DNA of 64,000 nucleotides from Nitrospinaceae bacterium (GTDB lineage: Bacteria > Nitrospinota > Nitrospinia > Nitrospinales > Nitrospinaceae): the NCBI GenBank assembly GCA_029261395.1, contig JAJDBJ010000083.1, positions 1 through 64,000 on the forward strand. The letters run 5' to 3'. The notes beneath the pieces were generated by a model. The model saw only the letters and a list, made by a program, of their open reading frames with translations, ran no database searches and was not told where the DNA came from. Both the position numbers and the translations under genes were made by a program. Shown in pieces: positions 47,364 to 50,815 of this stretch (positions within the stretch are counted from its first letter, which is position 1; every line of letters starts with the position of its first letter).

Positions 47364-48317
47364 TCACAAACCAGAGGGCTCATGTGCCAGAGAGACATCC
47401 TTTTCTCCCAAAGCGAACTCAATGGATTTTAAAATTCCCAATGGTTTGATACTGGGAAAAACGGTTCGCGCCCAATCGTTGTGAACGACAGTCGGGGTTT
47501 TAATACTTTCAATCAATCTTCTACCCACTCGCGCGTACAAGGGTGTGACCAGTGACAGCCACAAACTGGAAAGCCAGGGGGTTAAAACCGGAACCGGGAA
47601 CAGCCATCGTTTCAGCTTTCGTTGTCTGGAATATTCTGCAATCAAATCCTTATAGGAGACCTGATCCGGGCCTCCAATTTCAAAAATTTCATTCTGGCGG
47701 GTTTTAAGTTCAACGGCCTTGACCAAATAATCCAAAACATCCTGAATGCAAATAGGTTGAGATTTAACGTTTGTCCATTGCGGCATGATCATGATCGGTA
47801 ATCTTTCAGAGAGTGTTTTTATCATTTCATAAGACAGACTGCCCGAGCCCAGTATAATCGATGCCTGAAATTCGATGACTTGGACACCCGAAGCTCTTAA
47901 AATATTCCCAACCTCTTTGCGGCTTTTAAGATGAGGGGATAAGGGTCCTTCCTGAGGGTTTCCCAATGCGCCCAGAAAAATGATCCTCCGGGTTCCCGCC
48001 TCCTTGCAGGCCTCGGCAAAGTTTTTCGCCGCTTTGTATTCTTTTTTTTCAAAGTCCTGCTTTGCGTCCAGGCTGTGAGCCAAATAGAAGGCGGTTTCGA
48101 TTCCGTGTAACGCCTTAACGAGGCTTTCGGAGTTCAGCAGATCACCATGCACCACATCTACCTTGCTGTCGAATAGTCCTTTCTTCAATCGTTTTTTTCG
48201 AGAGAGACACCGTACTGGATATGACGATTGCACTAAACGCCGGATCAGGTTTTTCCCAACATATCCGGTTCCACCTGCAACGAGAATCGTTGGAGCAGTT
48301 ATTGTTTTTGGTTGCAT
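47364..48317 (-). CDS. Atypical short-chain dehydrogenase (NmrA/NDUFA9-like)
   Basis: 317 aa. NAD(P)-binding motif ILVAGGTGYVGKNLIRRL (about 11-28) and the YKAAKNFAEACKEAG helix that replaces the YxxxK catalytic region in these atypical SDRs. IGGPDQVSYKDLIAEY and the C-terminal substrate-binding part follow. Function could be quinone- or lipid-related. It is the last gene of the light-sensor operon that begins at 50697, and SDRs are reported among LitR-type regulons. Confidence 0.8.
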   Translation of the reverse strand: MQPKTITAPTILVAGGTGYVGKNLIRRLVQSSYPVRCLSRKKRLKKGLFDSKVDVVHGDLLNSESLVKALHGIETAFYLAHSLDAKQDFEKKEYKAAKNFAEACKEAGTRRIIFLGALGNPQEGPLSPHLKSRKEVGNILRASGVQVIEFQASIILGSGSLSYEMIKTLSERLPIMIMPQWTNVKSQPICIQDVLDYLVKAVELKTRQNEIFEIGGPDQVSYKDLIAEYSRQRKLKRWLFPVPVLTPWLSSLWLSLVTPLYARVGRRLIESIKTPTVVHNDWARTVFPSIKPLGILKSIEFALGEKDVSLAHEPSGL

Positions 48318-48346
48318 GAATTTAAACCTGAGTATTGTGTTGCCCG

Positions 48347-48766
48347 TTATTGGATTAGCCTAACAAAAACCACGGCCACTATGGTCAATTGAAACGTATT
48401 CAAAACGACGCTGGCGCGATGCATTCTTTCAAACAGTTTTATGGATGATGAGTCTCCGGCCAGTTGGGCATCCCGGTACTTGTTGATCACCGGCATCAAT
48501 ACTTTCCATCCGAAAATAAACATGGCAAAGACGAGAAATAAAAGCAGTGAGCTAGGCGTTCCCAAAAAAATCACTCCCGATATAAAAGCCAGGGCGGCCA
48601 TAACCAGGCTGTAAACCGGGAACGCTTCCCGTATGAAAGGCCCGGAGATTTCCGGCGGGAGTTTGGTGAAAACGAGAGGGGTCATGATGCATGCAAAAAA
48701 CATCATTCCTCCCAGAACCAATGCAACGAGGACCAAGCCTAATACATTTATGAATTCGACGCTCAT
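48347..48766 (-). CDS. DUF4149 membrane protein
   Basis: 139 aa with four hydrophobic helices. The DUF4149 (TMEM205-like) pattern is seen in the N-terminal VALVLGGMMFFACIMTPLVF and the C-terminal LFERMHRASVVLNTFQL. The RBS for MSVEF is GGTGCC-type and weak. It lies between the SDR and a small gene in the same operon. Function unknown. Confidence 0.75.
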   Translation of the reverse strand: MSVEFINVLGLVLVALVLGGMMFFACIMTPLVFTKLPPEISGPFIREAFPVYSLVMAALAFISGVIFLGTPSSLLLFLVFAMFIFGWKVLMPVINKYRDAQLAGDSSSIKLFERMHRASVVLNTFQLTIVAVVFVRLIQ

Positions 48767-48817
48767 GTGGCACCTCTGATAAATTGATGAATAAATATTG
48801 TGATCCGCTCAGCGGAG

Positions 48818-49000
48818 TCACGGTTTTCTCTGGTAGATATCCCAACTCATATAAGTCTGTTTATCTGCCTTCTCTTCTGATTCATAAAAGAATAGTTTAA
48901 TTTCATTGAAAGTTCTCCAATGGATTTTGCTCAGCTCCTGCGTTGAAACCACCTTCTTTAGATCGCCTTTAGGGGTCAATATTCGAACTTCGTAAAACAT
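48818..49000 (-). CDS. Small protein of unknown function
   Basis: 60 aa starting at MFYEVRIL, with AAAGGATGG placed correctly; a second start 9 bases upstream is too close to that site. It contains RILTPKGDLKKVVSTQEL and a basic, Tyr-rich C-terminus (YMSWDIYQRKP). No signal or membrane segment. It is in the operon between the B12-sensor gene and the DUF4149 gene. Confidence 0.6.
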   Translation of the reverse strand: MFYEVRILTPKGDLKKVVSTQELSKIHWRTFNEIKLFFYESEEKADKQTYMSWDIYQRKP

Positions 49001-49030
49001 GACGGCCATCCTTTCTTTGTAGAAAATAAT

Positions 49031-49972
49031 TTACATTTTCGCGGGATCGTTGAGCCATTTGTAAAATTGATTGAAATCGTCAATAACCTTTATCCCATCG
49101 AGATTGTCAGGAGCCCCGCCGCCTCCCACCACCACATCCGTTTTTTGGCTCAACTCTTTTCGGAGTCTCCACAGAATAGGTTTGGCTCGGGATGCTCCAT
49201 ACCAGCCAGATACGCTGACACAAAGGAGAGGCGCGCCACACTGGTTAACCGTTGCGACAATGTCTTCTTCCGGTGTGTCCAGGCCTAGCGAAACAATTTT
49301 CCAGTCGGTGGTCGACATCACCACCGCACACATTTGGAGTCCCAGAATGTGGCTTTCCCCCGGGAGTGTTGCAATAATCGCCGTTTTGCCGGGTTTGCGT
49401 TCATTCTGGCGTCGCCAGCGGGTGCCCAGAAAATTGCTCAATAATTCCGTGGCAAAATGCTCCTGAGCTACCGTAAAGTCGCCGCACTCCCACTTCTCCC
49501 CGATTCGAGTTACCAAAGGGCTTGCCAGGTTTGTGATGAAGGCAAGAGGTCCCAGTAATCCCCATTCCCGATGCATTTCAAAATTCAAATTCTCTTCGTC
49601 AAAATGACCAATCCAATCGAGCCACTGATTGATTTTGGAATCGTACTGGCTTTGTAGAAAATCAGATTGAGCAGAGGGCGATACCTTGGAGGAGCGTTTC
49701 GATTCAAAACCCATGAGGTTGTGCAGTTCCTCCAAAGTACCACCCACAACTTTACCCGCTCGAAATCCCAATTTAATAACCCGTGCAACCGCCCGCAGTC
49801 GCTCGATCTCTTTCGGGAGATAACGCCGATGCCCGGAAGGCAGTCGGATCGCCTTCGGGGAATCGTACCGTTTCTCCCAGATTCTCAGCGTGTGCGTGGT
49901 GATCCCGGTTCTTCGGGAGAGTTCGCCGATCGTGAGTAAACTTTCAGTCTGTTCTTCTACATCAGCTAACAT
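49031..49972 (-). CDS. CarH/LitR-like B12-dependent photoreceptor, MerR family repressor
   Basis: 313 aa. N-terminal MerR helix-turn-helix (YTIGELS-type, here LLTIGELSRRTGITTHTLRIWEKRY). The middle four-helix domain has the W-X9-EH signature: W161, then E171-H172, which in CarH surrounds adenosylcobalamin. The C-terminal B12-binding domain has E206-X-H208-X2-G211, where His is the lower cobalt ligand in the dark-state tetramer, and VVVGGGGAPD. Known CarH proteins repress their targets in the dark and release DNA on light cleavage of AdoCbl. It is second in an operon behind an operator-rich promoter, so autoregulation is likely. Confidence 0.88.
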   Translation of the reverse strand: MLADVEEQTESLLTIGELSRRTGITTHTLRIWEKRYDSPKAIRLPSGHRRYLPKEIERLRAVARVIKLGFRAGKVVGGTLEELHNLMGFESKRSSKVSPSAQSDFLQSQYDSKINQWLDWIGHFDEENLNFEMHREWGLLGPLAFITNLASPLVTRIGEKWECGDFTVAQEHFATELLSNFLGTRWRRQNERKPGKTAIIATLPGESHILGLQMCAVVMSTTDWKIVSLGLDTPEEDIVATVNQCGAPLLCVSVSGWYGASRAKPILWRLRKELSQKTDVVVGGGGAPDNLDGIKVIDDFNQFYKWLNDPAKM

Positions 49973-50010
49973 AATGTGTATCCAGGTAAAGGTTGTTAAA
50001 GATGCTTCTA

Positions 50011-50697
50011 TTACATATTGGTTTGGCTTGAATTCATTTGAGCCACTTCATTGTTGGAGAGGCCCATGATTCTCAAGCCGCCACTGGTGCGCTCGGCCAT
50101 CGTGGTTTGACCGTTGATCACCGTGTGAAACTTGTTCCCTATCTTGATGTTGTAGTCTTTCAATAATTTTTGTTCGAAACGGTTGAGTCCAACGAAAACC
50201 ACCTCTTCTGAACCCAGACGTTGTGAAATTCGATTCTGTGTGGATTCACCGAAAGACCATTCGTAAGGTAGCCGGGAATGGTCATGGCCGGAATGGTTGG
50301 CGCTACCGGTAGAAATCCGGGAGATCCAATTCAAGGTCCGGATGGGGAGTTGTTCATTGACAGTAATATTCATCGTGCCGCTATCCATGATTTGAATACC
50401 CGCAGAGGTTCGTTTGACATAAGCGTTGAGGCCATCCATCTGGGCGGTGAAGATATTGCCGGACCGAATGCCATAACGGTTCAAGGTCTTTTGCCCATGA
50501 GCTGAGAGTCCTACATAATGGCCGGTCTCTTTCAGAGTCCCCCGGTCTTGAATCTTGGCCTCAACTTTTTTGGAAAATTTCCATTGGAGAGAAAGTTTGG
50601 AGTGATCATGCTCGCTGTGAGCGGAGGCTAGGCTGGCGCAAAGAAACAAGCTGGCGGTGACTACTGTCAGTGTTTGGATCATTTTTGTCGTTTTCAT
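50011..50697 (-). CDS. Secreted protein with internal duplication, first in the photoreceptor operon
   Basis: 228 aa with signal peptide (SLFLCASLASAH). The mature part is two repeats of about 80 residues: HDHSKLSLQWKFS...YVGLSAHGQKTLNRYGIRSGN and HDHSRLPYEWSFG...FVGLNRFEQKLLKDYNIKIGN, each ending in a RTSxGxxIMxS/N segment. Each repeat starts with an HxxHDHS His cluster that might bind metal. No family recognised. It is separated by 38 bases from the B12-sensor gene and probably shares its transcript, so it should be light-regulated. Confidence 0.75.
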   Translation of the reverse strand: MKTTKMIQTLTVVTASLFLCASLASAHSEHDHSKLSLQWKFSKKVEAKIQDRGTLKETGHYVGLSAHGQKTLNRYGIRSGNIFTAQMDGLNAYVKRTSAGIQIMDSGTMNITVNEQLPIRTLNWISRISTGSANHSGHDHSRLPYEWSFGESTQNRISQRLGSEEVVFVGLNRFEQKLLKDYNIKIGNKFHTVINGQTTMAERTSGGLRIMGLSNNEVAQMNSSQTNM

Positions 50698-50741
50698 TTT
50701 GAATCCCCTTGTTTGTATTTATAAATTATCAGAGTTAATAG

Positions 50742-50815
50742 TTAGACGCAATGTCTAAGTACAATATTAGACAATTATCTAGTTTTGTCAATATAAAATC
50801 TAAACATTTTGTAGA
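50742..50815 (-). promoter_or_regulatory. Promoter with repeated TAGA/TGTC operator half-sites
   Basis: On the minus strand, TTGACA (50791-50786), 16 bases, TAATAT (50769-50764), about 65 bases before the first gene. A perfect dyad TTAGAC-N5-GTCTAA (50742-50758) sits at +6 to +22, and further TAGAT/TTGTC-type half-sites recur at about 11-12 base spacing over the promoter. That arrangement resembles CarH operators. The region 50816-51018 further upstream is AT-rich with no gene. Confidence 0.55.

Follow-up and report, generated by a model that had tools for sequence, protein, structure and literature searches.

A CarH/LitR-type regulator paired with an exported two-repeat protein in a putative light- or B12-responsive operon of Nitrospinota

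CarH proteins, described in Thermus thermophilus, Bacillus megaterium and Myxococcus xanthus, combine a MerR-type DNA-binding domain with a two-part B12-binding domain, and their TnnACA half-sites overlap the -35 and -10 elements of the promoter as three or four tandem 11-bp repeats. Two motifs, W-x9-EH and E-x-H-x2-G, separate the CarH proteins that use adenosylcobalamin (AdoCbl) from B12-independent CarA (PMC9304148). The class II LitR proteins of Pseudomonas (PplR1, PmlR2), by contrast, have no full B12 domain and a LOV protein as partner, and their box is T(G/A)TACA-N12-TGTA(C/T)A, placed over the -35 (PMC9758184). Pseudomonas LitR operons carry PhrB, short-chain dehydrogenases/reductases (SDRs) and RudS, and RudS, photolyase and LitR have been reported together in light operons (PMC11417400). 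Here we analyze a five-gene operon on the minus strand of a 64,000-nucleotide stretch of Nitrospinaceae DNA (the window; contig JAJDBJ010000083.1 of assembly GCA_029261395.1). Running from 50697 to 47364 with intergenic gaps of 38, 21, 51 and 29 nt, it encodes in order an exported two-repeat protein that we call SEC, a MerR-B12 regulator, a small open reading frame (ORF), a DUF4149 protein and an NmrA-type SDR. SEC is most probably the first gene of the operon, since the gene upstream encodes a sigma-54 activator and SEC has its own promoter.

The light sensitivity of nitrite oxidisers has been invoked to explain where nitrite gets oxidised. To our knowledge, light sensing in Nitrospinota is undescribed, and a literature search pairing Nitrospina with CarH found no paper; with the regulator, its boxes and a short list of genes now defined, the question can be tested. 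Nitrospinota are the most abundant known marine nitrite oxidisers (PMC8026999). In Nitrotoga, another nitrite oxidiser, light stops nitrite oxidation (PMC8415719), which makes a light response plausible by analogy but is no evidence for the window operon.

The initial annotation had recognised the regulator as a CarH/LitR-type protein by its two motifs, and domain and structure comparisons bear this out. Pfam finds a MerR_1 domain (PF13411, 1.4e-12) and a B12-binding_2 domain (PF02607, 2e-7, 31.8 bits against a cut-off of 23), together with a B12-binding domain (PF02310, 4e-7) that at 30.3 bits lies slightly under its cut-off of 32.1. The protein matches the solved Thermus CarH structures (3whp/5c8d) with an E-value of ~3e-21 by phmmer. 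The W-x9-EH motif reads WECGDFTVAQEH (residue 161) and E-x-H-x2-G reads ESHILG (residue 206), with GG also present, while RIWEKRY at residue 30 fits a DNA-recognition helix of the RxWERRY type. Orthologues occur across the order at 39-86% identity, and the 37 full-length homologues that we compared retain W131, H142 and nearly always E141. The regulator scores 99.6 bits with the NCBIfam CarH equivalog NF052513, below the cut-off of 400, and is therefore considered a CarH relative, not the named equivalog.

The core promoter consists of a TTGACA, acting as -35 and doubling as the left TnnACA arm, and a TGTCTA 12 bases further on, which forms the right arm and overlaps the -10 region AATATT. The element TTGACA-N12/13-TGTCTA(AT) is conserved order-wide and is followed by a TAGACA/TATACA box. 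TGTCTA/TAGACA was found 57 times in 37 upstream regions (two tandem copies included), against 3.1 expected from dinucleotide shuffles. Inverted pairs of the form TnnACA-N12/N13-TGTnnA occurred 35 times in 35 upstream regions (~0.3 expected), 12 of them with N12 and 23 with N13 (0.1 and 0.2 expected, respectively). As judged from sequence, this geometry matches that of the published LitR/PplR box and differs from the tandem repeats of CarH, although TnnACA is the published CarH half-site. The initial annotation had proposed half-sites at about 11-base intervals and a TTAGAC-N5-GTCTAA dyad. Direct spacings of 10-12 bases were indeed enriched (18 observed vs. ~1.2 expected), but less so than the inverted pairs, which dominate. 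The dyad is present, but only the window and one sister show it clearly, and it has decayed in others; the TAGACA/TATACA box within it is widely conserved and the full N5 dyad only within the genus. The operator half-sites that are conserved across the order are thus the TnnACA pairs of the operon promoter.

A sequence model built from the SEC-operon promoters, which matches its own members by construction, found a single site in the window's genome. Its matches in G008, a single-contig genome, were the three SEC operons and a 117-aa exported ORF (L154:6269-6767), which lies behind a CarH-type promoter with no regulator gene nearby and is a possible further member of the regulon. In G026 a further match fell in the divergent promoter that separates a CbiX-like operon from a second copy of the regulator gene. 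The sites in L154 and L060 are outside the set used to build the model.

The exported family also recurs beside other CarH-type genes: 33 of the 37 SEC copies found across the order lie just upstream of a regulator. In 32 copies the regulator gene follows in the same orientation at no more than 1.3 kb, often after 30-40 nt; in the remaining linked copy (L072), the contig end cuts just inside the regulator gene. Among 41 genomes, 17 encode both proteins, one SEC only, two the regulator only and 21 neither (Fisher p 2e-8, related genomes not being independent). The distance matrices of SEC and regulator are correlated (Mantel r 0.81, 0/999 permutations), as expected of a pair that travels together, with a contribution from common genome descent. 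Phylum-wide, SEC was present in 27 of 77 genomes, all of one order, and none was found in the other orders. A genome-contig scan of limited reach, made with a subset SEC profile, returned Nitrospinota records only, and the nearest named relatives are Nitrospinaceae and Nitrospina metagenome-assembled genomes. SEC stands without regulator and without promoter in L075 and L112; by contrast, L074 and L076 retain a similar TTGACA...GTCTA promoter. Taken together, the sequence comparisons support a tie between the secreted SEC family and CarH-type regulators that is conserved across the order.

SEC itself corresponds to the secreted two-repeat protein with HxxHDHS clusters that was first described: it has an apparent signal peptide (by eye) and two repeats starting with HSEHDHS and HSGHDHS. 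The H-x2-HDHS cluster leads each repeat and HDHS is near-invariant in an alignment of 27 family members, while an alignment of 54 repeat sequences shows the repeats to be homologous, with W14, G37 and Y49 invariant. No family match was obtained in Pfam, NCBIfam, PHROGs, the PDB or plasmids; weak matches to DUF6797, Ig-like and Csm4_C were scattered and taken as chance. A single repeat is predicted to fold as b-a-b-a-b-b-b (mean pLDDT 87). Among VIA-align matches to this model, the PUA domains of RsmE came top (Z 5.9-6.0, 62-65 residues superposed at 2.6-3.2 A), followed by ASCH and YTH. Domains of these three kinds, each a barrel of the PUA superfamily, make up most of the matches, although a Z below 8 may reflect chance or a common arrangement; Foldseek gave E > 0.05, and the weak structure searches exclude no fold. 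The predicted fold of the repeat thus bears a weak resemblance to PUA-like barrels (Z about 6). SEC differs from the RsmE N-terminal, ASCH and YTH domains in having no sequence similarity to them and in being exported, whereas they act on RNA inside the cell. Tandem PUA-like domains with His clusters would suit a periplasmic ligand- or metal-binding protein, a tentative guess.

We propose, with a probability of about 0.58, that an AdoCbl-dependent CarH/LitR-type repressor autoregulates this operon and is probably released by light, in a photo-oxidative or near-UV stress response. In the dark, with AdoCbl bound, the holo-repressor would occupy the paired TnnACA boxes, including the -35, and block transcription from SEC through carH to the SDR gene. 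Cleavage of the Co-C bond of AdoCbl by light, or loss of AdoCbl, would release the repressor, and the exported SEC would then be made along with the membrane and redox proteins. Control of the operon by its own AdoCbl-dependent repressor is well supported by the anatomy of the locus, from which we infer AdoCbl binding and repression; light is the likely natural signal. AdoCbl could be produced from salvaged B12, since the window's genome encodes a PF01923 adenosyltransferase. The neighbours seen in relatives support the link to light: a TudS-type desulfidase gene is divergent in L050, L104 and L106, a full RudS adjoins L058, a TudS desulfidase or RudS lies near the regulator in L056, and L064, the only such case, has a co-oriented photolyase gene just upstream. 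No promoter-model box was found upstream of separate photolyase genes, so that only its position in L064 suggests a place for photolyase in the regulon. RudS also follows a CarH-like regulator elsewhere, including at L073 of the window's genome, as in the RudS light operons, but is missing from the window operon. Relatives' operons here resemble those of Pseudomonas LitR, although the Pseudomonas clusters as described have no counterpart of SEC.

Several observations weigh against this proposal. The residue equivalent to Thermus CarH His132 is Glu in the window regulator and most homologues, the salt-bridge residue Arg176 of Thermus is replaced by Ser, and the middle B12 motif is S-V-S instead of the usual S-x-T/V. 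In five homologues the lower axial His is gone although the SEC-regulator operon is kept; it is replaced by Tyr in four (L061:6483-7424, L065:2267-3226, L069:1126-2097 and L103:3973-5001) and by Gln in one (L109:3427-4371). No PF00875 photolyase was found in the window's genome. His132, the upper ligand of the light-adapted bis-His state, is present in many CarH proteins but not all (PMC9304148), and most of the Thermus H132A protein is still tetrameric after light (PMC10442372). Glu at this position is thus not decisive for CarH membership but weakens the case for a copied light mechanism. Given this Glu and the variation of the axial His among homologues, a light switch, if present, is no plain copy of that of Thermus. 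The present photochemical model of CarH could also be put to the test with these naturally occurring substitutions of His132 by Glu and of the axial His by Tyr.

In line with the remark in the initial annotation that neither carotenoid nor photolyase genes are seen, no CrtI-type gene scored over the cut-off in the window's genome or 20 relatives, and the window operon differs from those of CarH in having no carotenoid genes and an exported protein, SEC, encoded first. The conserved pairing and promoter boxes suggest a stress response that is controlled by light or B12 and does not involve carotenoids. A more specific reading seems to us unlikely: SEC would be a new lineage-specific family of exported tandem PUA-like proteins, made as the dedicated output of a B12 photoreceptor that does without the His132 switch, and the light response of these nitrite oxidisers, auxotrophic for B12, would be based on neither carotenoids nor photolyase.

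The main rival to light release is that the regulator would sense B12 status, repressing when AdoCbl is plentiful and derepressing when B12 is scarce, with light incidental and the operon serving corrinoid or tetrapyrrole salvage or B12-free metabolism. Although we find it rather doubtful, it stays a serious rival because B12 auxotrophy is predicted for cultured Nitrospinae, which have BtuB/BtuCDF (PMC8026999), the adenosyltransferase is present and the light-state ligand His132 is absent. Many relatives encode a CbiX-like protein of the chelatase family after the regulator, and one encodes a CobW-family protein, which would also fit; the CbiX-like protein, however, scores 40 bits against an NCBIfam chelatase cut-off of 120, and its gene has been deleted from the window operon. 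The operons compared contain no corrinoid transporter or B12-independent isozyme that we could see, and it is light-associated genes that recur beside CarH-type regulators.

Substitution of the axial His with persistence of operon and promoter, and a box geometry that is that of class II LitR, would also be compatible with a B12-independent regulator controlled by a partner, in the style of CarA-CarS or LitR-LOV, whose B12 domain would be vestigial or serve for docking while the signal is sensed by another protein. The window protein nevertheless retains both W-x9-EH and E-x-H-x2-G as well as the Rossmann B12 domain that class II LitR lacks, and the loci showed no evident LOV or CarS candidate, although no search was aimed at either; we judge this explanation improbable. 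The near-invariant HDHS clusters of SEC, the MerR DNA-binding domain of the regulator and the metal handling of the CbiX and CobW families could suggest a metal-stress operon answering Zn, Cu, Co or Ni. This is very improbable: the sensor domain is B12-binding and not a MerR metal-binding loop, the operons contain no metal transporter, and the divergent SEC of L075 has no His clusters.

Features of the operon and its promoter in the window.
Feature	Coordinates	Strand	Evidence
SEC, exported protein of 228 aa with two homologous ~85-aa repeats; first gene of the operon	50011..50697	-	ORF, alignments
CarH/LitR-type regulator, 313 aa; MerR DNA-binding, 4-helix and Rossmann B12-binding domains	49031..49972	-	Pfam, phmmer, residues, orthologues
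63-aa fusion ORF (SMALL N-terminus, X155 C-terminus)	48818..49009	-	sequence families, blastn against L046 and L047
DUF4149 membrane protein	48347..48766	-	Pfam PF13664 1.1e-9
NmrA/atypical SDR; last gene of the operon	47364..48317	-	Pfam PF05368 1.6e-19
Core promoter/operator TTGACA-N12-TGTCTA	50763..50791	-	box counts, promoter model
Downstream boxes TAGACA (50752-50757) and CGTCTA (50743-50748), forming the TTAGAC-N5-GTCTAA dyad	50742..50758	-	

Downstream of the regulator, the DUF4149 and SDR genes were as first annotated, whereas the small protein proved to be a deletion scar. The first half of the 63-aa ORF matches the SMALL family and the last half the C-terminus of X155, and by blastn the window DNA matches L046 on both flanks of a ~1,047-base gap, with a short matching sequence at the joint. 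Sequence comparison thus identifies the ORF as an in-frame fusion at the site where the window lineage lost ~1.05 kb that the sister species have, and no function is to be built on it. The deletion removed the operon's CbiX-like gene together with most of X155; a CbiX-like gene is found elsewhere in the genome (G000:C71).

The regulator is followed in relatives by varying sets of genes encoding the ~175-aa CbiX-like family (L050:6284-6817 and relatives), X155/X174 exported proteins, a SMALL or treble-clef ORF, DUF4149, and TIGR01777 or NmrA SDRs. The DUF4149 gene is retained in the operons of L046, L047, L056, L057, L060 and L061, and the NmrA-type SDR in those of L046, L051, L057 and L067. 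A 454-aa downstream gene of relatives was considered as a photolyase and rejected, since it encodes a TIGR01777 SDR that carries a polyketide-cyclase domain. The CbiX-like family also occurs in a photolyase cluster of G007 (L132).

The window's genome encodes a second, more distant CarH-like regulator (L073:3280-5171, G000:C12), with RudS (TudS-DUF1722) behind it. The box in the divergent promoter of this regulator is a different one, TGTCAAA...TTGACAAACATT, and L077 and L129 have similar boxes; on the opposite side are FGE-sulfatase-like genes and a cytochrome c gene.

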